In this document: positions 220 to 10,352 of the stretch, in pieces
Position numbering within the stretch: the stretch's first letter is position 1
Layout of the letters: each line of letters starts with the position of its first letter
Origin: Muribaculaceae bacterium
GTDB taxonomy: Bacteria > Bacteroidota > Bacteroidia > Bacteroidales > Muribaculaceae
Direction: 5' to 3'
NCBI GenBank assembly: GCA_024400895.1
Contig: JAKSMA010000059.1
Coordinates: 1 to 11,319, forward strand
Length of the DNA: 11,319 bases
Notes under the pieces: model-generated
Database searches by the model: none
What the model saw: the letters and a program-made list of their open reading frames with translations, nothing else
Told to the model about the DNA's origin: nothing
Program-made: the position numbers and the translations under genes

Positions 220-2631
220 ATGAGAAAAACTATTACTTCATTGCTGTTTGCAGCAGTGGCTTGTGTTTCGGCTTTTGGTGCCGATACATGGTCGCTTCAA
301 GGCAACGTCTACACTGTAGACACTCTCTTTCACAATCAAGTGGGTCCTGGCACCACCACCACATCGCTTTGGTTTAGAAATGCAGCCACTGGCGATGCAT
401 TGCGTGTGTTCTATGCCATCATGGACATGACCAACCCTTATCTTTCGCTTCATGGCGTGTGCGCTACCGACAAACTTGCCGGCAACGAGCGCATCTCGGC
501 TATGGCACAGCGTAAGTCGCAACCCGGTGCCCGCTATTTCGTGGGCATTAATGCCGACTTCTTTACCACATCGGGCCAAACCAACCGAGGTGTGTCGAAA
601 GTGGGCTCGCCAGTGGGCTCCACTGTGGTCGATGGCGTGATTTACCGCGCCCGCAACAATGCCAAACTTTACAAGAATTTCGTGGTCGACACGCAAGGTG
701 CGGTGTATGTAAACCCATTTTTCTTCGGTGGCTCCGTTGTGGCTCCCGATGGCACTTCTGCCACATTGGGTGGCATTAATGTGAGCGCCAACGAAAGCGC
801 GGCTTCCAACCAGAATAAGGTGACCATTTACAATGATTTGTATTATGGCGCTACTGCCGAATCGGGCGGCTGTGAAATTGCTGCAGTGCTTGTGGAAGGC
901 GAAAAGTTTGAAACCGGTAAACCCTTCAAAATGAAATTGGTGGGCGCACCAAGCACCGCCGGCGATATGGACATCGCAAAAGGTGGATATGTGCTTCACG
1001 GACATGGCACTGCAGCCACTTTCATTGCTTCGCTCCACGAAGGCGATATCATCACAGTTTCGCCATCATGGACATTCAATGGGCAGTCGGTAGAGCCTTA
1101 TCAGGTGATTTCTGGTAATCCTAAGATTCTTGAAAACGGCGTAACGCTTCAAAGCGAAGGCGACCGTGGCGATGCCAGCGCGCGTCACCCTCGTTCGGCT
1201 GTAGGCTACAGCGACGATGGCAAGAAGGTGTATTTCTTGGTAGTCGATGGCCGTTCACCTATTTCAAGCGGTGTGCGCACCACATGGCTTGCCGATATTA
1301 TGCGTTATGCAGGCGCCACCGACGCTATGAATGTGGACGGCGGCGGCTCTTCGATTCTCTATACCAGCACCCTTGGCACCCGCAACCGTCCAAGCGATGG
1401 TAGCGAACGCGCCGATGGTAATGCCATCTATGCCGTGAGTTCAGCGCCCGACGACGATGCCATTGCCAGCATCCGCTTCGTGGACTTCGCCCTCAAATCG
1501 CCAAAATACGGTGTCTACACTCCAAAGTTCTACGGCTATAACCAATATGGCATGCTCGTGAGCCAGGATGTGAAGGGCGTGAAACTTTCATGCACCGAGG
1601 CGCTTGGCCACATCATTGGCGACACCACCTTCTATGCCGACGGCTCTTTGCGTGAGGGCTTGCTCACCGCCACCTACGAAGGTGTCACCGTATCTGCTCC
1701 AGTGACCATTATCGATGCTGTGGATGCCATCAACATCACCAACGATTCCATCATCACCGACAGTTACAAAGAATATCCAGTGGCTGTGCAGACGCTGGTG
1801 GGGGAGAACGACATGAGCATTAGGCCGCGTGCACTCACATGGACGAGCACCGGCGAAAGCGTGGTCACTATTGGCGAGCATACTGGTGTGCTGAAAGGTT
1901 TGAGAAACGGTTCTGCACAGGTGGTTGGCACTCTCGGCGAAGTGTGCGACACCATGCTCGTGAATGTGGAAATTCCTGAAGCGCGTGTCATGCCCATTGA
2001 CCCAAACCTCGATATCACCACTTGGAAATTTAGCCAAACAGGCGGTAAAAATGTGGTGACAACTGCAGTGGGCGATGGTATTGACTACACCTACACTGGT
2101 GCATCGGGCCGCAGCCCTAAGATTGTGCTTACCAAAACCATTCGCTTGTGGAGTTTGCCCGACATCCTTCGCATTCGCGTGAATCCAGGCGAGGCTCCTG
2201 TGAAGAATTTCGTGTTTGGTTTGCGTGCCAATGGCGGCAGCATGAGCTACCAAACCATCACTCCCGAAACCATCACTCCTAACGAGGAATTGGTGGTTGA
2301 GGTGCCAACAAGCAGTTGGTGCGATGCTACCGACATGGGCAACTATCCCATCACTTTGAGTTCTATCCAGCTCAATATGAACACATCCACCACCGACAAG
2401 GTGTATGAAATGCATTTCACAGGCCTTGAAACCGTGTATCTTGATGTGCCCGACACCCCAGTAGTTAAGGGTGATGTGAACGGCGACGGCGTGGTAAATG
2501 TATCGGACGTTACCGCCCTCATCAACAAGATTTTGGGCATGGTTGAAATTGCCGACGAAAAGTGCGACATCAACGGCGACGGCATCATCAATGTGAGCGA
2601 CGTGACTGCTCTCATCACGATGATTCTCTAA
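220..2631 (+). CDS. Secreted phosphodiester glycosidase family (NAGPA/DUF2233) protein with dockerin, paralogue 1
   Basis: This 803-aa protein has a signal peptide at residues 1-20 (cleavage probably after SAFG). A phosphodiester glycosidase domain at about 95-410 belongs to the family of the human mannose-6-phosphate uncovering enzyme. Its family motifs are NADFF (111-115), HPRS (323-326), DGRSP (343-347), DGGGSS (373-378) and NRPSDG (389-394). It is followed by an Ig-like region (about 415-500), a Big_2-like repeat (about 500-585), a beta-rich module (about 590-745) and a dockerin with two EF-hand-like loops (752-763 and 783-794). The expected activity is hydrolysis of a sugar-1-phosphodiester bond outside the cytoplasm; the substrate is unknown. 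NADFF differs from the NGDF[FW] of its three paralogues. It has its own promoter and a 220-base gap to gene 2, so it is probably a separate transcription unit. The start is the only ATG giving the signal peptide and sits 6 bases after the leader word shared with gene 2. Confidence 0.88.
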   Translation: MRKTITSLLFAAVACVSAFGADTWSLQGNVYTVDTLFHNQVGPGTTTTSLWFRNAATGDALRVFYAIMDMTNPYLSLHGVCATDKLAGNERISAMAQRKSQPGARYFVGINADFFTTSGQTNRGVSKVGSPVGSTVVDGVIYRARNNAKLYKNFVVDTQGAVYVNPFFFGGSVVAPDGTSATLGGINVSANESAASNQNKVTIYNDLYYGATAESGGCEIAAVLVEGEKFETGKPFKMKLVGAPSTAGDMDIAKGGYVLHGHGTAATFIASLHEGDIITVSPSWTFNGQSVEPYQVISGNPKILENGVTLQSEGDRGDASARHPRSAVGYSDDGKKVYFLVVDGRSPISSGVRTTWLADIMRYAGATDAMNVDGGGSSILYTSTLGTRNRPSDGSERADGNAIYAVSSAPDDDAIASIRFVDFALKSPKYGVYTPKFYGYNQYGMLVSQDVKGVKLSCTEALGHIIGDTTFYADGSLREGLLTATYEGVTVSAPVTIIDAVDAINITNDSIITDSYKEYPVAVQTLVGENDMSIRPRALTWTSTGESVVTIGEHTGVLKGLRNGSAQVVGTLGEVCDTMLVNVEIPEARVMPIDPNLDITTWKFSQTGGKNVVTTAVGDGIDYTYTGASGRSPKIVLTKTIRLWSLPDILRIRVNPGEAPVKNFVFGLRANGGSMSYQTITPETITPNEELVVEVPTSSWCDATDMGNYPITLSSIQLNMNTSTTDKVYEMHFTGLETVYLDVPDTPVVKGDVNGDGVVNVSDVTALINKILGMVEIADEKCDINGDGIINVSDVTALITMIL

Positions 2632-2672
2632 ATCAGCAGATAAATCCCCTTTCTTAATGTAGAGGGGCAATC

Positions 2673-2733
2673 ATTAAGGAATTAAAGAAAATTGGGTACG
2701 CTTCGGCATCCCCACATTCTTTAATTCCTTAAT
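2673..2733 (+). repeat. Intergenic palindromic repeat (copy 2), possible gene 1 terminator
   Basis: A perfect 17-bp inverted repeat pairs ATTAAGGAATTAAAGAA (2673-2689) with 2717-2733. Nested in its loop is a second stem: TGGG (2693-2696) pairs with CCCA (2711-2714), and GC/GC closes a TTCG tetraloop at 2702-2705. The T-rich TTTGTTTTTG follows from 2733, so it may end gene 1 transcription. A small additional stem CCCCT/AGGGG (2646-2650 with 2663-2667) precedes it. The right arm shares CATTCTTTAATTC with the copy at 10185-10197. Confidence 0.7.
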
Positions 2734-2779
2734 TTGTTTTTGATTGGGATGACAGATTGGTGGAAAAGTGGGGATTTTC

Positions 2780-2817
2780 TTGCTTTTTATGACGAAAATG
2801 GGTAATTTTATACCCAT
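2780..2817 (+). promoter_or_regulatory. Predicted gene 2 promoter, duplicate of gene 1 promoter
   Basis: TTG at 2780-2782, a 20-base spacer and TAATTTTA at 2803-2810 match the gene 1 arrangement exactly in spacing and -7 sequence. The overlapping dyad is ATGGGTA (2798-2804) and TACCCAT (2811-2817) around the same ATTTTA centre. The outermost pair is swapped relative to gene 1, so pairing is preserved. The leader word CTTAACTAATAAACCA at 2827-2842 matches 199-214 with one change. The site probably drives the gene 2-3-4 operon. Confidence 0.5.
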
Positions 2818-2851
2818 ATACACCGACTTAACTAATAAACCACTATAGACA

Positions 2852-5215
2852 ATGAAAAAAACGATTACCACCTTATTGCTTGCCGGTGCAATGGCATTGG
2901 GAGCGAATGCGAAAGGAACTTGCGATGTGGCAGGTACTGTCTACACTGTCGACACCACTTTCCATGCCTACATAGGACCGGGCACTACACAAACCTCTAT
3001 GCTGCTGCAGAGTGGCAACAAGCACCTGCGTGTGTTCTACACCACGATTGATTTGACCAATCCGTATGTGAAAATTCGCGCCGTGAGCGGCACCGACATG
3101 ATGGCGGGTGGCGAAACCGTCTCGCAAATGTGTAACCGTAAAACTGAGCCCGGTCAGCGCTACTATGTGGGTGTGAATGGTGACTTTTGGGTTACTGCTG
3201 GTACCACAGCCCGTGGTCAGTCGATGGTGGGTGCGCCTATCGCCTCGTCGATGGCTAAAGGTGTGATATATAAGGGTATGAACAACAACGAATACCAATA
3301 CACTCTCGATGTAAATCAAGTGCCAACAATCGGCACGGTGACCTTTGGCGGCACCATTGAGGGTGCAGGCGGGAAGGTGAACATCGGCGGTATCAATACT
3401 GGCGCTGTGACCAATGCCGTTACGCTCTATAACCCCACTTATTTCAATGGTACCAACGAAGGTGGCGTAACCGAAGTGCAAGTGCGCTATGTGGATGGCG
3501 ACGACTCGTTTGCTTTCGGCAAGCAGTGCAAACTTGAGGTGGTGAACACCCCAAGCAGTGCTGGCGATATGGATGTGCCAAGCGAAGGTCTTGTGCTCAC
3601 AGGCAAAGGCTCGGCCGCAGCATTTATTGGTGCTTTGAAGCCTGGTGACCAACTCACGCTCACACTCAATGCCTCTCAAAACGGAAAGAATTTCTCTCCA
3701 TCGGAAATCATCTCTGGCCAACCTTGGGTGCTCAATGCCGGCAACGTGAATTTCGATGGAAATCCTGATGTGCATCCACGCACCGTGCTTGGCTACACGC
3801 AAGATGGTAAAACCGTGATTTTCATGGTGGTTGATGGCCGTTCGCCATTGAGCGATGGCTGTACTACGGCTGCACTTGGTTCACTGATGAAATATGCAGG
3901 AGCCTACCATGCTGTGAATGTGGATGGTGGCGGCTCTTCTTGCCTCTATTCAAGTGCCCTTGGCGTGCGTAACCGCCCAAGCGACGGTAGCGAGCGTGCC
4001 GACTGCAACGGTATTTTCGCTGTGAGCGAAGCGCCCGACGATAGCGTGATTGCAAGCATCCGCTATGTTGACTTCAGTCTGCGTCTTCCAAAATATGGCC
4101 TTTATACTCCTAAATTCTACGGCTACAACCAATACGGAATGCTCGTCGACACTGATGTGAAGGGCGTGAAGCTCTCTTGCGACGAAGCCTTGGGCCACAT
4201 CATTGGCGACACCACTTTCTATGCCGACGGGTCGCTCCCTGAAGGTGTGCTCACAGCAACCTACGGTGACATCTCCACCACCATCGTGGCACAAATCCAG
4301 AATTCGGTGGATGCCATTTCTATTGTGAACGATTCTGTAATCAACGACACTTTCCGTGAATATGCCATCGATGTCGAAAGCGTGGTGGGCGAAACGAAGA
4401 TGCGCATCAACCCTGCCGCCCTCACTTGGACAAGTACCGATGAATCGGTGGTGACAGTGGGCGAGCACACTGGTATTTTGAAGGGGTTGAAAGACGGTGA
4501 AGCCTTTGTGATTGGCACCCTCGGCGAAGTGTGCGATACCATGAAGGTGATTGTGGAACGCCCAACAGCCCATGTGATGCCTCTCGATCCAGATTTGGAT
4601 GTGGCAACATGGAAAATCAGTCAAACAGGCGGCAAAAATGCAGTGGCTACAGCCCTCGGCAGCGGTATCGATTATGTCTACACTGGCGCTTCTGCCCGCG
4701 GTCCTAAGATTGTATTGACCAAGACATTCCGCGTTTGGAGTTTGCCTGACGCTATCCGCATCACGCTCAACCCAGGTGAGGCACCCGTGAAAAATGTGGT
4801 GCTTGGCGTGCGTGCCAATGGTGAAAGCATGTCGTACCAAACCATTGAACTGGAAGGCATGGAGCCCAATAAAGAAGTGGATATCGACCTCCCCACATCT
4901 TCATGGATGGATGCCAACAATATGGGCAATTACCCAATCGTGTTGAGTTCTATCCAGTTTAATATGAATGCCTCGACCACAGGCAAGGAATATCACATGG
5001 TGTTCAAGAACTTTGCTTCGGTCTACAATGCTATCCCCGACACCAAGACGGGTGACATCAATGGCGACGGTGTGGTGAACGTATCGGATGTCACCGCGCT
5101 CATCAACAAGATTCTCTCGCTCGCCGACTTCTCTGATGCCGTGTGCGACATCAATGGCGACGGCGTGGTGAATGTGAGCGATGTTACAGCACTTATCAAC
5201 TTGATTTTAGGATAA
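2852..5215 (+). CDS. Secreted phosphodiester glycosidase family (NAGPA/DUF2233) protein with dockerin, paralogue 2
   Basis: This 787-aa protein shares the architecture of gene 1: signal peptide 1-20 (cleavage probably after GANA), phosphodiester glycosidase domain at about 93-395, Ig-like region at about 400-485, Big_2-like repeat at about 486-570, beta-rich module at about 572-730, and dockerin loops at 735-746 and 766-777. Family motifs are intact: NGDFW (109-113), HPRT (308-311), DGRSP (328-332), DGGGSS (358-363) and NRPSDG (374-379). Of the four copies it is the closest to a canonical family member. Three cysteines (337, 364, 385) lie next to these motifs and have no counterpart in the paralogues. 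The linker between its dockerin repeats (SLADFSD) is identical to that of gene 3. It is the first gene of the probable 2-3-4 operon. Extracytoplasmic glycan phosphodiester hydrolysis is inferred from the family. Confidence 0.88.
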   Translation: MKKTITTLLLAGAMALGANAKGTCDVAGTVYTVDTTFHAYIGPGTTQTSMLLQSGNKHLRVFYTTIDLTNPYVKIRAVSGTDMMAGGETVSQMCNRKTEPGQRYYVGVNGDFWVTAGTTARGQSMVGAPIASSMAKGVIYKGMNNNEYQYTLDVNQVPTIGTVTFGGTIEGAGGKVNIGGINTGAVTNAVTLYNPTYFNGTNEGGVTEVQVRYVDGDDSFAFGKQCKLEVVNTPSSAGDMDVPSEGLVLTGKGSAAAFIGALKPGDQLTLTLNASQNGKNFSPSEIISGQPWVLNAGNVNFDGNPDVHPRTVLGYTQDGKTVIFMVVDGRSPLSDGCTTAALGSLMKYAGAYHAVNVDGGGSSCLYSSALGVRNRPSDGSERADCNGIFAVSEAPDDSVIASIRYVDFSLRLPKYGLYTPKFYGYNQYGMLVDTDVKGVKLSCDEALGHIIGDTTFYADGSLPEGVLTATYGDISTTIVAQIQNSVDAISIVNDSVINDTFREYAIDVESVVGETKMRINPAALTWTSTDESVVTVGEHTGILKGLKDGEAFVIGTLGEVCDTMKVIVERPTAHVMPLDPDLDVATWKISQTGGKNAVATALGSGIDYVYTGASARGPKIVLTKTFRVWSLPDAIRITLNPGEAPVKNVVLGVRANGESMSYQTIELEGMEPNKEVDIDLPTSSWMDANNMGNYPIVLSSIQFNMNASTTGKEYHMVFKNFASVYNAIPDTKTGDINGDGVVNVSDVTALINKILSLADFSDAVCDINGDGVVNVSDVTALINLILG

Positions 5216-5240: not shown

Positions 5241-7637
5241 ATGAAAAAGCAAGTTGCAATTTTGGCTTTGGCTTGTGCTGCCGCTTTCGGGGCACAGGCT
5301 TCTACACAATACAATGTGCGTGGCACGGTCTACCAAACCGACACGCTCTTCCACGCGATGCTTGGCCCAGGCACTTCGCAGACCTCGCTTCTGATGCGTT
5401 CGGAGGCAGGGCGTCAAATGTATGTCTACTATGCGAAGATTGATTTGACCAATCCTTACATCTCCTTCAGCACTGTGATGGGCAAGGATCAACTGGCTGG
5501 CACCGAAACCGTGCGCAGTATGTCGGAACGCAAGTCGCGCCCAGGTGCACGCTATTTCCTTGGTGTGAACGGCGACTTCTTCTACACCTCTGGCAACACC
5601 AGCCGTGGCGAGTCGAAGATAGGTATTCCTATTGGCCCATGCATTGTGGATGGCGAAATCTACAAGGCCAACACCAATTCAAGTTACACCCAGTTTGTCC
5701 TCGATGCCAACAATCAAAATCCCATCATCGGCAGCACCAAATTCTCAGGCTCTGTGACCAATGCCGCAGGCACGAAAATCAGTGTTGGTGGTGTCAACTT
5801 GTTGAATCCCAGTTTGTCGAATCGTGTAATTATCTACAATAGTCACTTCTTCAGCGGCACCGACCTTCCCTCAGGCGATGCCGAAATAGCCATGAGGCTT
5901 GCCGATGGCGAATCGTTTGTGTTTGGCAAGCCATTCAAGATGGTGGCCACAGGCGCTCCATCCACTGCCGGCGATATGAACATCCCTGCCGATGGCTTCG
6001 TGATTCACGGCCAAGGCACAGGCAACGATTTTGTGAAAGCCCTGAAGGAAGGCGATGAAATCACTGTGGAATTTCATGCCAAGATTGATGGCAAAGAAAT
6101 ATATCCTCACACCATGATGTCGAGTTGGCCAAACAGCCTCCACAATGGTGAAGTGACCGAAACCGAATATCTGCTTGAAGAGTTTGGCACCAACCAGCCT
6201 GTTACGGCTGTGGCGATTGCCGATGGCGGCAAAACCATCATGTTTCTCACTATCGACGGCCGCTCTCCACTCTCAAGCGGTGCCCGCACCACCGAAATAG
6301 CCGATTTGCTCCGCTTGCTCGGTGCCACCGATGCTGTGAATATGGATAGTGGCGGCTCTTCCACATTCTATTCAAGTTCGCTTGGCGTGCGCAATGTGCC
6401 GAGCGACGGCTCTGAGCGCCCCGATGGCAATGGCATTTTCGCCGTCTACACCGCTCCCGACGACAGCACCATTGCCAGCATCGCATTTGTCGACTGGGTG
6501 GCAAAAGTGCCTAAATACGGCATCTATCGCCCGAAATTCTATGGCTACAACAAATATGGCTTGCTCATCGACACCGACTTGCATGGCGTGACTATCAGTT
6601 GTCCCGAGTCGGTGGGTCATGTGCAGCAGGATAGCGTGTTCTTCGGCGACGGTGCCGGCGATGGCCTCATCACTGCCCACTACGGCGATATGACTGCCAC
6701 AGTGCCTGTGCAGATATTTGGCGAAGGCGAAGGCATTAAGTTTAAGAACGATTCCATCGTGAACGACACCTATCGCGATTATGTGGTGGAAGTGACCAAC
6801 ACAGTGGGCGACATCACCATGCCCATCCACTCCTCAGTGCTTACATGGAGCAGCAGCGACGAGTCGGTGGTGAAGATTGATGCCGAAACAGGTGCATTGC
6901 GTGGCGTGACCGATGGCGAAGCCTATGTGTATGGCACTATCGGCGAATTCACCGACACCATGAAGGTGATAGTGGAGCGCCCAACGGCTCATGTGATGCC
7001 TATGGACCCAGGCTTGGATGTAAGCACTTGGAAAATCAGCCAGACAGGTGGCAAAAATGCAGTGAGCACCGCCCACGGCGATGGCTTCACCTACACCTAC
7101 ACCGGTGCATCGGGCCGCAGTCCGAAGATTGTACTCACCAAGACTATCCGCCTGTGGAGCCTGCCCGATGCCATCCGCATTCGTTTCAATCCGGGCGAAG
7201 CCCCTGTGAGCAATGTGGTGCTCGGTTTGCGACCTAATGGACAGAAAATGAGTTACCAGACCCTCACTCCCGACACTGTGATTGCCGGCAAGATGATTCA
7301 ACTCGAATTGCCCACCTCGTCGTGGATTGATGCCGACGATATGATGAATTATCCAATCGTGTTGAGCACCATTCAGCTGAATATGGGCACCTCTACTACG
7401 GGAAAGGAATACACCATCGACTTCGATGGCTTTGAACTGGTTTATGATGCCGTGGTCGATGAAAAGAAAGGCGACGTGGATGGCAATGGCGAAGTGAATG
7501 TGAGCGACGTGACCGCCCTCATCAACAAGATTCTCTCTCTCGCCGATTTCTCCGATACCGTGTGCGACATCAATGCCGACGGTGTGGTGAATGTGAGCGA
7601 TGTGACTGCACTAATTAATATAATTCTTGGCTTATGA
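5241..7637 (+). CDS. Secreted phosphodiester glycosidase-like protein with dockerin, paralogue 3 (variant motifs)
   Basis: This 798-aa protein has a signal peptide at 1-20 (cleavage after GAQA), a phosphodiester glycosidase-like domain at about 94-405, an Ig-like region (about 412-495), a Big_2-like repeat (about 497-580), a beta-rich module (about 582-738) and dockerin loops at 745-756 (DxDxN form) and 776-787. NGDFF (110-114) and DGRSP (339-343) are kept. HPR[ST] is replaced by QPVT (319-322), DGGGSS by DSGGSS (369-374) and NRPSDG by NVPSDG (385-390), all at the same alignment positions without gaps. Activity may therefore be altered or lost; a binding role is an alternative. It starts 25 nt after gene 2 with no visible promoter, so it is probably co-transcribed with it. 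It is closest to gene 4 in the catalytic and Ig-like regions, but its dockerin linker matches gene 2. Confidence 0.86.
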   Translation: MKKQVAILALACAAAFGAQASTQYNVRGTVYQTDTLFHAMLGPGTSQTSLLMRSEAGRQMYVYYAKIDLTNPYISFSTVMGKDQLAGTETVRSMSERKSRPGARYFLGVNGDFFYTSGNTSRGESKIGIPIGPCIVDGEIYKANTNSSYTQFVLDANNQNPIIGSTKFSGSVTNAAGTKISVGGVNLLNPSLSNRVIIYNSHFFSGTDLPSGDAEIAMRLADGESFVFGKPFKMVATGAPSTAGDMNIPADGFVIHGQGTGNDFVKALKEGDEITVEFHAKIDGKEIYPHTMMSSWPNSLHNGEVTETEYLLEEFGTNQPVTAVAIADGGKTIMFLTIDGRSPLSSGARTTEIADLLRLLGATDAVNMDSGGSSTFYSSSLGVRNVPSDGSERPDGNGIFAVYTAPDDSTIASIAFVDWVAKVPKYGIYRPKFYGYNKYGLLIDTDLHGVTISCPESVGHVQQDSVFFGDGAGDGLITAHYGDMTATVPVQIFGEGEGIKFKNDSIVNDTYRDYVVEVTNTVGDITMPIHSSVLTWSSSDESVVKIDAETGALRGVTDGEAYVYGTIGEFTDTMKVIVERPTAHVMPMDPGLDVSTWKISQTGGKNAVSTAHGDGFTYTYTGASGRSPKIVLTKTIRLWSLPDAIRIRFNPGEAPVSNVVLGLRPNGQKMSYQTLTPDTVIAGKMIQLELPTSSWIDADDMMNYPIVLSTIQLNMGTSTTGKEYTIDFDGFELVYDAVVDEKKGDVDGNGEVNVSDVTALINKILSLADFSDTVCDINADGVVNVSDVTALINIILGL

Positions 7638-10018
7638 AAAAGATTTTAGTTTCGGCTCTTGTGGCTGCCATGGGCATGGCAGCAAGCGCCTCTATCAATT
7701 ATAATATTCGCGGCACTGAATTTGTGGCCGACACCATTTTTCACGCTATGGTCGGACCCAGCACCAGCTGCACCCAACTTGTGATGCGCACCGATGCGGG
7801 CCGCCAGATGTATGTGCGCTATTCCATCACCGACATGACCAACCCCAATGTGGTGTTCTCTGCCGTGATGGGGCAGGACAAGTATTCCGGTGGCGAAACC
7901 ATTTCGGGCATGTCGCGCCGCAAATCTCGCCCCGGAGCACAGTATTTCTTGGGTGTGAATGGCGACTTTTTCCGCACCAGCGGCCAGTCGGGCCGTGGCG
8001 AATCTGTCGTGGGTGCTCCTATTGGACCTTGCATTGCCGATGGCAAGATTTATCATGGCAACAACCATGTGGCCAACTGGATTGATTTTTCTATCGACAC
8101 AAACAAACGCCCGCTTTTCGGCGATGCCTCGTTTGGCGGCACAGTGACCAATCAGAAGGGCGAAACCGTGGCAATGGGTCAGGTGAACAGTGAATTTGCC
8201 TGCGACCAGATAGAACTCTTCACCTCCACCTACATTTCAAGCACCAATCTGCGTGGCACATGTGCCGAGGTGCAGGCTGTGCTTGCCGAGGGCGAGGAAT
8301 TCAGCATCAATAAGCCTTTCCGCCTGGTAGTCACTTCCGCTCCTTCCGGTGCTGGCGACATGGATATTCCTGCCGATGGCTTCGTAATCAGAGGTCAGGG
8401 CTCTACGCTGAATTTCGTGAACAACCTGAAGCCCGGCGATGTGGTCACTTTCGACCTTCGCGTGTATATGAGCGGTCAGGAGGTGAAACCTTTCACCATG
8501 ATTTCGAGTGTGCCCAAAATTCTCGGCGCCGGCCAGGTGCTCGAAACCGAATATATCATGGGGCAGTTCAGCAGTGCCCAACCACTCACCGTGATGGGCT
8601 ATAGCCAAGACGGCAGCAAGATAATTATGGTGCAAATCGATGGCCGCTCGCCCATCTCCAGCGGTGCTCGCACCACCGAAGGTGCCGACTTGCTGCGTCA
8701 ACTCGGTGCATGGGAAGGCCTCAACTTCGACAGCGGTGGCTCTTCCACCATGTATAGCCAGGCGTTGGGCACCCTCAATGTGCCGAGCGATGGCTCCGAA
8801 CGCTCCGATGCAAATGGCTTCTTTGCTATCAGCACCGCTCCCGACGACAGCACCATTGCCAGCATCGCGTTTGTCGACTGGGTGGCAAAAGTGCCCAAAT
8901 ACGGTGTCTATCGCCCCAAGTTCTTTGGCTATAACCAATACGGACTGCTCATCGACACCGATGTGCAGGGTGTGAAAGTAAGTTGCCCCGAATCGGTGGG
9001 ACACATGACCGACGATGCCACATTCTATGGCGATGGTAGCGGTGACGCTCTCCTCACTGCCCAGTATGCCGGCCTCACCGCCACCGTGCCTGTGCAGATT
9101 TTGGGCGAAGGCGATGGACTGAACATTGTGAACGATTCCATTATCACCGATACCTATCGCCAATACGCCGTGGCAGTGGAAAACACCCACGATGGTGTGA
9201 CTCGCCCCGTGAATCCTTCTGCGCTCACATGGAGCAGCAGCGATGAGTCGGTAGTGGTGATTGATGCCAACACGGGAGTGCTGCGTGGCGTGGCCGATGG
9301 CGAGGCCTATGTGTATGGAAGCGTGGGTGAATTTGCCGACACCATGAAGGTGATAGTGGAGCGCCCAACGGCTCATGTGATGCCTATGGACCCAAGTCTG
9401 GATGTGAGCACATGGAAAATCACCCAAACCGGCGGCAAAAACGCTGTGGCCACTGCTGTGGGCGATGGCATCGACTACACCTACATCGGTGCATCGGGCC
9501 GCAGCCCAAAAATCGTGTTGAGCAAAACCTTGCGCATGTGGAGTCTGCCCGATGCCATTCAAATTCGTTTCAATCCGGGTGAAGCACCAGTGAAGAATGT
9601 GGTGCTGGGCATCCGTCCGAATGGCGATAAAATCAGTTACCAGACACTCGAGCCCGACACCGTGATTGCTGGTGAGGATATCGTGCTCACACTGCCCACT
9701 GCATCGTGGATTGATGCCGATAATATGGGTAACTATCCACTTGTGTTGAGCACCATCCAACTCAATATGGGCACATCAACCACCGGTCAGCAATACACCA
9801 TTCATTTCCAGGGTTTTGAAACCGTCTACGATGCCGTTCCTGCTCACAATGTGGGTGATATCGATGGTAATGGCGTGGTGAACGTGAGCGACGTGACAGC
9901 CCTCATCAACCAAATCCTCGGCACCGCATCATATCCAACCGACAGCTGCGATGTGGATGGCAACGGCGTGGTGAATGTGAGCGACGTCACCGCCCTCATC
10001 AACCTCATCCTCGGCTAA
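7634..10018 (+). CDS. Secreted phosphodiester glycosidase-like protein with dockerin, paralogue 4 (variant motifs)
   Basis: This 794-aa protein has a signal peptide at 1-18 or 1-20 (MAASAS region), a phosphodiester glycosidase-like domain at about 93-400, an Ig-like region (about 408-490), a Big_2-like repeat (about 495-577), a beta-rich module (about 579-736) and dockerin loops at 742-753 and 773-784, both of the DxDxN form. NGDFF (109-113) and DGRSP (336-340) are kept. As in gene 3, the other signatures are changed: QPLT (316-319), DSGGSS (366-371) and NVPSDG (382-387). Its ATG overlaps the gene 3 stop in an ATGA, with no purine-rich site before it, so translation is probably coupled. Stretches of near-identity to gene 3 at synonymous positions point to recent duplication or gene conversion. 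The last codons form a hairpin with the sequence after the stop. Confidence 0.86.
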   Translation: MKKILVSALVAAMGMAASASINYNIRGTEFVADTIFHAMVGPSTSCTQLVMRTDAGRQMYVRYSITDMTNPNVVFSAVMGQDKYSGGETISGMSRRKSRPGAQYFLGVNGDFFRTSGQSGRGESVVGAPIGPCIADGKIYHGNNHVANWIDFSIDTNKRPLFGDASFGGTVTNQKGETVAMGQVNSEFACDQIELFTSTYISSTNLRGTCAEVQAVLAEGEEFSINKPFRLVVTSAPSGAGDMDIPADGFVIRGQGSTLNFVNNLKPGDVVTFDLRVYMSGQEVKPFTMISSVPKILGAGQVLETEYIMGQFSSAQPLTVMGYSQDGSKIIMVQIDGRSPISSGARTTEGADLLRQLGAWEGLNFDSGGSSTMYSQALGTLNVPSDGSERSDANGFFAISTAPDDSTIASIAFVDWVAKVPKYGVYRPKFFGYNQYGLLIDTDVQGVKVSCPESVGHMTDDATFYGDGSGDALLTAQYAGLTATVPVQILGEGDGLNIVNDSIITDTYRQYAVAVENTHDGVTRPVNPSALTWSSSDESVVVIDANTGVLRGVADGEAYVYGSVGEFADTMKVIVERPTAHVMPMDPSLDVSTWKITQTGGKNAVATAVGDGIDYTYIGASGRSPKIVLSKTLRMWSLPDAIQIRFNPGEAPVKNVVLGIRPNGDKISYQTLEPDTVIAGEDIVLTLPTASWIDADNMGNYPLVLSTIQLNMGTSTTGQQYTIHFQGFETVYDAVPAHNVGDIDGNGVVNVSDVTALINQILGTASYPTDSCDVDGNGVVNVSDVTALINLILG

Positions 10019-10106
10019 CGAGGATGAGCTCGGCAAGGTGAGCAGCGGTGTGTCAGCATAGCTGGCGCCGCGAACAGCTCGCCTTGCCAACATTCCCTTA
10101 TCCTCG
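10004..10106 (+). terminator. Structured 3' end of the operon: stop-codon hairpin and large stem-loop
   Basis: CTCATCCTCG (10004-10013, the last sense codons of gene 4) pairs perfectly with CGAGGATGAG (10019-10028), placing the TAA stop in the 5-base loop. Positions 10032-10043 then pair with 10077-10088 (12 bp, one G-T), with further inner stems (45-48 with 68-71, 54-57 with 61-64 of the 10000 block). ATCCTCG at 10100-10106 offers a competing partner for 10019-10025 that would enclose the large stem-loop. No T-run follows, so it may protect or process the 3' end rather than terminate by itself. Confidence 0.55.
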
Positions 10107-10130
10107 GATAAATCAGGAAGATAATAAGTG

Positions 10131-10201
10131 TCAAGAATTAAAGAATTTATAATCTGAATAGACGTGTTGTTCAGGTTGTTCTTTCATTCTTTAATTCTTG
10201 A
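10131..10201 (+). repeat. Intergenic palindromic repeat (copy 3), possible terminator
   Basis: A perfect 16-bp inverted repeat, TCAAGAATTAAAGAAT (10131-10146) with ATTCTTTAATTCTTGA (10186-10201), has a 39-base loop. Seven T follow directly (10202-10208), so on the + strand it could serve as an AT-rich intrinsic terminator for the operon. The arm core is shared with the elements at 16-33 and 2673-2733, while the loops are unrelated. Confidence 0.65.
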
Positions 10202-10250
10202 TTTTTTTGTGTCTGCCAGAGGATTAATTGTTAATAATATTTAAATTTAT

Positions 10251-10259
10251 GGGGGGGGG
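10251..10259 (+). repeat. Homopolymeric G9 tract upstream of gene 5 promoter
   Basis: Nine consecutive G occur in an otherwise very A/T-rich stretch, ending 3 bases before the predicted -33 element of gene 5. Runs of this length are prone to slipped-strand length change, and such a change here would shift upstream sequence relative to the promoter. Whether it varies cannot be seen from one sequence; the run length could also be an assembly artefact. Confidence 0.6.
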
Positions 10260-10262
10260 TAA

Positions 10263-10293
10263 ATTGAAGATTGGTTGTGTTTTGGTAAATTTG
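10263..10293 (+). promoter_or_regulatory. Predicted gene 5 promoter
   Basis: ATTG at 10263-10266, a 19-base spacer and TAAATTTG at 10286-10293 match the Bacteroidota pattern, with a full consensus -7 box (TAnnTTTG). Transcription would start near 10300, giving an A/T-rich leader of about 50 bases and no Shine-Dalgarno, as is usual in the phylum. The A/T-rich sequence at 10220-10250, before the G run, could act as an upstream element. Confidence 0.6.
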
Positions 10294-10352
10294 TAAGATA
10301 AAAATTATTTTTATCCATTTAAGTAGAAACTAAATTATTAATCAAACTATAT

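Follow-up and report, generated by a model that had tools for sequence, protein, structure and literature searches.

Here, we describe a Muribaculaceae locus in which two of four neighbouring DUF2233/NAGPA genes have exchanged an Arg and a Gly that are otherwise invariant in the family. The window, i.e. the whole stretch of DNA that was analysed, is one whole contig of 11319 bases (G000:C217) that begins at the first of these genes (gene 1). It carries four tandem genes on the + strand encoding proteins of 787-803 residues, followed by a BspA-type leucine-rich repeat (LRR) gene that is truncated by the contig end. In each of the four proteins, an NAGPA/DUF2233 domain (PF09992) is accompanied by a weak match to Big_2, and the C-terminus carries a type I dockerin; Dockerin_1 was above its cut-off in all of them. 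Their products probably act outside the cell, as the N-termini, judged by eye, suggest secretion. Genes 2 and 3 are spaced by 25 bp, and the ATG of gene 4 overlaps the stop codon of gene 3 (ATGA). The four genes are as follows.

Gene 1, 220..2631, + strand: canonical DUF2233/NAGPA protein of 803 aa (PF09992, 103.1 bits; PF00404, 44.3 bits) with HPRS, DGGGSS and NRPSDG
Gene 2, 2852..5215, + strand: canonical DUF2233/NAGPA protein of 787 aa with dockerin (PF09992, 85.1 bits) and with HPRT, DGGGSS and NRPSDG
Gene 3, 5241..7637, + strand: Arg-less DUF2233/NAGPA variant of 798 aa with dockerin (PF09992, 82.6 bits)
Gene 4, 7634..10018, + strand: Arg-less DUF2233/NAGPA variant of 794 aa with dockerin (PF09992, 69.8 bits)

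The initial annotation had set HPR[ST], DGGGSS and NRPSDG of genes 1 and 2 against QP[VL]T, DSGGSS and NVPSDG of genes 3 and 4, with NGDFF and DGRSP retained in the latter pair, and all of these differences and both retained motifs were present as described. However, the genes had been said to align without gaps, and an alignment of 808 columns with small gaps was required, in which gene 2 lacks five columns immediately ahead of HPRT. The positions concerned are listed below; residue numbers here and throughout (Arg321, Gly370, Gly295, Gly325, Asn367, Asp369 and others) are those of gene 3.

Gene 3 MSSWP, 6117..6131, + strand: family Gly295 replaced by Ser
Gene 3 QPVT, 6195..6206, + strand: family-invariant Arg321 replaced by Val
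Gene 3 DSGGSS, 6345..6362, + strand: family-invariant Gly370 replaced by Ser
Gene 3 NVPSDG, 6393..6410, + strand: no signature change, the second position being variable among canonical members
Gene 4 ISSVP, 8501..8515, + strand: Gly replaced by Ser at the alignment column that holds residue 295 of gene 3
Gene 4 QPLT, 8579..8590, + strand: invariant Arg replaced by Leu
Gene 4 DSGGSS, 8729..8746, + strand: invariant Gly replaced by Ser
Gene 4 NVPSDG, 8777..8794, + strand: motif position

Columns were counted in 157 distinct domain cores from the gathered loci (223 hits, 197 of them covering enough of the domain; open reading frames with >60 masked residues were skipped). The set contains 130 canonical cores with Arg and Gly, 19 cores of a paralogue termed class B with Arg and Ala, and 8 variants with Val or Leu and Ser, and none was mixed. 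Among the canonical cores, 118 are close and 12 are distant, the latter being those of 29 phylum loci that covered enough of the domain; in this phylum-wide sample (30 loci, L060 not being hit), PR[TS] and DGGG were present in 29/29 rows found. The Arg column was R in 118/118 close and 12/12 distant canonical cores and V or L in 8/8 variants, and the first Gly of DGGGS was likewise G in 118/118 and 12/12 and S in 8/8 variants. The earlier statement that two conserved Arg, one His and one Gly were lost was therefore upheld for Arg321 and Gly370, which are family-invariant, but not for the His and the NRPSDG Arg, both of which vary among the 130 canonical cores. At the His column, 112 of them have H and 8 have Q; because Gln is thus also found in canonical cores, the change of His to Gln was ruled out as a coupled change. 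NRPSDG was ruled out as a third coupled motif in the same way, since the NxPSDG column is R in only 16 of the 130 (H in 39, V in 19 and K in 18) and is still R in 1/8 variant cores; the initial description of three altered family motifs was too strong. The remainder of the pocket was conserved: 23 columns are near-universal in the 118 close and 12 distant canonical cores, and 18 of these are unchanged in 8/8 variants, which keep N110, D339-G340-R341, D369, GGS, N385 and R393 among others. The near-universal columns that the variants have lost are R321 (8/8), G370 (8/8), G295 (6/8, to Ser), G325 (4/8, to Ala) and N367 (1/8, to Ser); the change at G295 had not been part of the initial annotation.

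The coordinated change proposed by the initial annotation was supported in a larger set of 328 distinct domain cores (353 rows; the cores include the same gene from two sources). Loss of Arg and replacement of Gly by Ser or Thr never occurred apart, one row being gapped at the Arg column, so that 0 uncoupled sequences were found, and Arg was kept in 177/177 cores having Gly or Ala at 370.

In a tree built with the motif columns removed (145 rows thinned to 85), the 8 variants formed one branch with support of 99/98, nested among Arg-bearing Muribaculaceae paralogues. A QP.T/DSGGSS clade, the existence of which had been suggested as a check, is thus real and has one origin. The 8 variants come from six genomes (window, L007, L008, L009, L017 and G230). 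Among the genus-genome matches listed, of which at most six to seven per genome were scored or kept, at least five genomes bear a variant (G000, G237, G221, G193 and G230), L008 coming from a separate search, and a search of 393 genomes of the order gave no DSGGS at the 16 listed places outside the window's genome. Two protein searches returned 76 proteins before the distant match P0077, namely 48 with Arg and Gly and 28 variants; the searches that gave the P-numbered proteins started from variant sequences, so these counts are not frequencies. Four of the variants (P0014, P0029, P0034 and P0069) have Ile at the Arg column and DSGGSA; no dockerin was assigned to them, and their C-terminal ends look like sorting-type tails in its place.

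Through P0077, a second group was reached, partly named Eremiobacterota, Acidoferrales or Acidoferrum (P0077-P0196). With 120 of 456 hits of the P0077 search listed and only candidates sharing most words scored, the group has at least 120 rows, of which 75 are V/S, 41 L/S, 2 V/T and 1 L/T and one is gapped at the Arg column, giving the paired change in 119/119 scorable rows. These proteins share with genes 3 and 4 the paired change, in their own motifs [YNF]P[VL] and D[ST]GGS, and they also keep other pocket residues (N110 and D112 in 117/117; D339 and G340 in 119/119; R341 in 118/119; D369, GGS and R393 in 120/120). However, they differ from genes 3 and 4 by their own changes at 113, 367 and 397, and residue 385 is not Asn in 30/120. 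In a joint tree of 37 of 118 second-group rows, 27 canonical loci, the 8 variants and three single proteins, with class B left out, the second group (100/99) and the Muribaculaceae clade (100/98) stood on separate branches, and a common origin of both was rejected by the approximately unbiased (AU) test (p-AU 0.008; 0.007 with P0076 added). The paired Arg/Gly swap thus appears to have arisen at least twice. P0076, which has His at the Arg column together with Ser and sits on a very long branch, may represent a third independent event. When the core was divided into 30-residue windows, the Muribaculaceae clade was closer to the Muribaculaceae canonicals than to the second group in 19/19, and recombination is therefore disfavoured; a transfer of the core from the second group left no local signal in these windows.

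Two further positions were compared between the groups. A Glu seven residues before the lost Arg is present in 119/119 Eremiobacterota-type rows and in 24/35 Muribaculaceae variant rows, the other 11 having Gln, and the same position is Asp in 77/118 close canonical rows (ungapped count). As a candidate for a new catalytic acid this Glu was not relied on, being found in 60/158 canonical cores by alignment columns. Phe368, directly before Asp369, is a softer correlate of the paired change (137/151 variants versus 8/158 canonical).

Selection on the catalytic part was estimated by the ratio of nonsynonymous to synonymous substitution rates (dN/dS, Nei-Gojobori), which is rough here since several dS values exceed 1. 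Gene 3 gave 0.023 versus L007 and 0.067 versus L008, and gene 4 gave 0.067 versus L008; higher values were obtained for gene 2 (0.096 and 0.114) and gene 1 (0.135 and 0.137). The reading frames are intact in 8/8 variant genes. Because dN/dS of the catalytic part is lower in genes 3 and 4 than in genes 1 and 2, decay is contradicted, and drift is unlikely because the same pair recurs in a second lineage. As far as can be judged from the sequences, genes 3 and 4 represent a second, recurrently evolved pocket type and not decaying copies.

A fifth paralogue in the same genome (L005:340-2784, - strand, on contig G000:C200) is the class B NAGPA gene, which also encodes a dockerin and belongs to the set of 19 cores. 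Both class B and genes 3 and 4 are modified DUF2233 proteins with a dockerin, but class B keeps the Arg, has Ala in place of Gly370 in 19/19 cores, and in all 19 has changed the NGD Asp to Asn, DGR to DKS or DMS, and PSDG to TTEG or TTES. A core that retains the Arg can thus have another residue in place of the Gly, which is then Ala and not Ser. Class B looks like a conserved pseudoenzyme and would be a better candidate for one than genes 3 and 4.

The pairing of a variant with a canonical paralogue in one array, as first noted for genes 3 and 4 with gene 2, recurs in relatives: in 6/6 variant-bearing genomes, one or more Arg-bearing NAGPA genes stand in the same array as the variant. The G230 locus reads SusC, SusD, a PKD protein, GHL10, the variant NAGPA gene, two dockerin proteins of ~475 residues and an Arg-bearing NAGPA gene truncated at the contig end. 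G221 shows a PKD protein and GHL10, then a dockerin protein of 476 residues, followed by gene 1, a variant, gene 2 and a further canonical gene. In G207, none of whose cores is a variant, SusC and SusD are followed by a Pfam-unmatched protein, GHL10, a dockerin protein of 470 residues and two NAGPA genes. In L017, two proteins of ~475 residues are followed by gene 1, gene 2 and a variant, with no GHL10 there. SusC and SusD are present in the array locus of both relatives that were scanned that far upstream (G230 and G207); the window contig itself starts at gene 1. The window's own genome has eight GHL10 matches, on other contigs. Pairs of the ~475-residue dockerin proteins recur upstream of or beside NAGPA arrays (L010:5053-6603 and 6765-8183; L098:1834-4938), and in a search with domain profiles (one protein also against NCBIfam, one against solved structures) they gave no domain above the curated cut-off except dockerin. 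One cohesin match was found in G000 (44.1 bits), and a cohesin match is present in 33/61 genus genomes, in 28 of them above the cut-off. On the same contig as the class B gene, L106:10644-12695 (- strand, G000:C200) encodes a protein with BspA-type LRR, dockerin and cohesin. Since all four window proteins end in a dockerin and cohesin matches occur in the genus, a dockerin/cohesin assembly is possible in this Bacteroidales genus.

From conservation, coupling and context, we infer the phosphate contact of the Arg, the catalysis and the substrate as follows. In canonical members such as genes 1 and 2, the Arg would bind the phosphate group of a sugar-1-phosphate diester such as N-acetylglucosamine-1-phosphate-mannose (GlcNAc-1-P-mannose), the substrate of the mammalian uncovering enzyme. 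Such a role would come naturally to an invariant Arg that lies close to the conserved Asp loop. The variants keep NGD, DGR, Asp369-x-GGS and PSDG-ER, and Ser370 would refit the space vacated by the Arg. Because the Arg is replaced by Val, Leu or Ile along with a fixed change of Gly to Ser, a pocket that no longer meets phosphate would be the simplest reading, and retention of the GGS loop and of the acidic residues favours altered catalysis over a dead domain. We tentatively propose that the paired change turns a phosphodiester-glycosidase pocket into one that binds and cuts a phosphate-free glycan bond, and we place this somewhat short of an even chance. Gene 2 would then cut a phosphodiester, and genes 3 and 4 another linkage of one glycan, outside the cell. 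The broader proposal, that DUF2233 has a second catalytic type in which phosphodiester glycosidases became phosphate-free glycoside hydrolases at least twice by the same two-residue switch (loss of the Arg with Gly to Ser next to the pocket Asp), is put forward with considerable doubt. As for the substrate, a bacterial cell-wall glycan may be guessed, because in relatives the array sits in a SusC/SusD locus with GHL10 of the peptidoglycan-cleaving type, and because the linkage of wall teichoic acid, which is joined to peptidoglycan through GlcNAc-1-phosphate on N-acetylmuramic acid, chemically resembles GlcNAc-1-phosphate on mannose.

The main alternative is that genes 3 and 4 encode catalytically dead, glycan-binding surface proteins of the DUF2233 type, which would present substrate to gene 2 and the SusC/SusD importer. 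A family-invariant residue has indeed been lost, the variant shares its array with an Arg-bearing paralogue in all six genomes, and strong purifying selection would fit a binding role equally well. However, both groups have retained the acidic residues along with DGR, GGS and PSDG-ER, the other group that shows this pair is large and likewise retains the pocket residues, and class B, having lost the NGD Asp, DGR and PSDG in all of its cores, shows what a better candidate looks like; we consider a dead domain unlikely, yet it deserves serious attention. Less probable still, in our judgement, is that the proteins remain phosphodiester glycosidases whose pocket has been re-tuned for another sugar or aglycone, the Arg not being essential for phosphate. 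R341 and R393, which could hold a phosphate, are kept with other conserved residues in 8/8 variants, but the retention of Arg in every core with Gly or Ala at 370 and in five solved relatives is hard to explain if it is dispensable.

Two other explanations concern the history of the genes and not their activity. The same residue pair in both groups, together with the Phe368 common to most of both, could mean that the change had a single origin and was passed to the Muribaculaceae clade through gene transfer or recombination; this is very improbable, as motif-free trees place the clade among Muribaculaceae canonicals, common origin is rejected, and all 19 windows are nearer to those canonicals. 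Neutral decay of redundant array copies would agree with the varying copy number, for example in L007, where genes 1-3 but no gene 4 precede the LRR gene. With dN/dS of 0.02-0.07 in the catalytic part, intact frames in every variant and the same pair in the second group, we give decay hardly any credence.

Several points weigh against a shift to phosphate-free catalysis. The tie between Arg and phosphate is here presumed from sequence comparison, and a pseudoenzyme would be conserved as well. The variants still score as PF09992, both genes 3 and 4 exceeding its curated cut-off of 25 bits, and databases name them phosphodiester glycosidases. G295 and G325, conserved in canonical members, have also been lost in 6/8 and 4/8 variants, respectively. 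The independent events number two, perhaps three with P0076, and not 150, and it is in these events, not in the number of sequences, that the evidential weight lies; the AU test was made after the groups had been seen, with long branches and unequal letter make-up. GHL10 is found in 100/100 genus genomes sampled, and its presence as such is therefore of little weight; its position in the array is more informative.

Some other features of the array were also observed. The 220 bp separating genes 1 and 2 (window 2632-2851) form a strong hairpin fold (z -4.25), the 17-base arms of which are found three times in L007 too, and genes 1 and 2 abut in L010 and L017; this spacer hairpin resembles either a terminator or a small mobile palindrome. 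In L007, the nearest relative (gene 3 is 97% identical), the LRR gene directly follows gene 3 (L007:7684-7974 versus window 7634-10352), and gene 4 therefore comes and goes. Gene 1 is a mosaic relative to L007 (window 220-1467 versus L007:273-1520), with dS of 1.29 in the catalytic part and 0.46 in the middle part, which suggests replacement of its catalytic half; the L007 copy has QPRA/DGGGSA where gene 1 of the window has HPRS/DGGGSS.

Little is known of the biochemistry of bacterial DUF2233 proteins, and the split described here divides the family sharply, in a way that is readable from sequence and appears to have arisen at least twice; the two-residue switch lends itself to testing in either direction. 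Should the variants be without phosphodiesterase activity, many automatically assigned names of the type 'phosphodiester glycosidase' are misleading, and a whole class of entries would be misnamed. If the bonds cut by genes 2 and 3 differ, the locus would point to a phosphodiester-containing glycan that gut Bacteroidales use and that has gone unrecognised, for which bacterial cell-wall polymers would be the first candidate.

No paper on an Arg-less DUF2233 type was found in a literature search that had most subscription journals outside its coverage, and none that links wall teichoic acid and Bacteroides to this idea was found, as judged by title and abstract start; the same literature yielded no paper on the solved structures. 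Among known systems, Cwp19 and DigH, another GHL10 protein, are comparable through the GHL10 protein with dockerin that lies upstream of the NAGPA array in relatives, which is a neighbour and not a homologue. The GHL10 domain of Cwp19 is described as a peptidoglycan lytic transglycosylase (PMC6016235), and DigH is described as cleaving denuded peptidoglycan glycans (PMC12288456). Among homologues, the five solved relatives with printed alignments (6ozd, 3ohg, 6u11, 5h3k and 6pki) all carry the Arg as well as the Gly that follows the Asp, with 5h3k departing one position later (DGGSS). The Bacteroides ovatus DUF2233 protein (3ohg) is single-domain; its HPRT and DGGGST correspond to the motifs of genes 1 and 2, whereas its Arg and Gly are absent in genes 3 and 4; this protein was reportedly found to be weakly active on GlcNAc-P-mannose by Das et al. 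in 2013. The mammalian uncovering enzyme (NAGPA; PDB 6pki, 6pkg, 6pku and 6pky) has a homologous core, 6pki matching a profile of the four window cores with an E value of 2.1e-05, and its structure is said to recognise GlcNAc and phosphate. By hand count in the printed alignment of 6pki_A, R321, G370 and G295 correspond to chain positions 222, 269 and 183, respectively. The reactions of the enzyme include the removal of GlcNAc from a phosphodiester and the cleavage of UDP-GlcNAc (PMC12024695). Its DGGGS loop and Arg column align with those of genes 1 and 2, whereas genes 3 and 4 are without both the Arg and the Gly, and the uncovering enzyme has a membrane anchor where the window proteins have a Big_2-like match and a dockerin.

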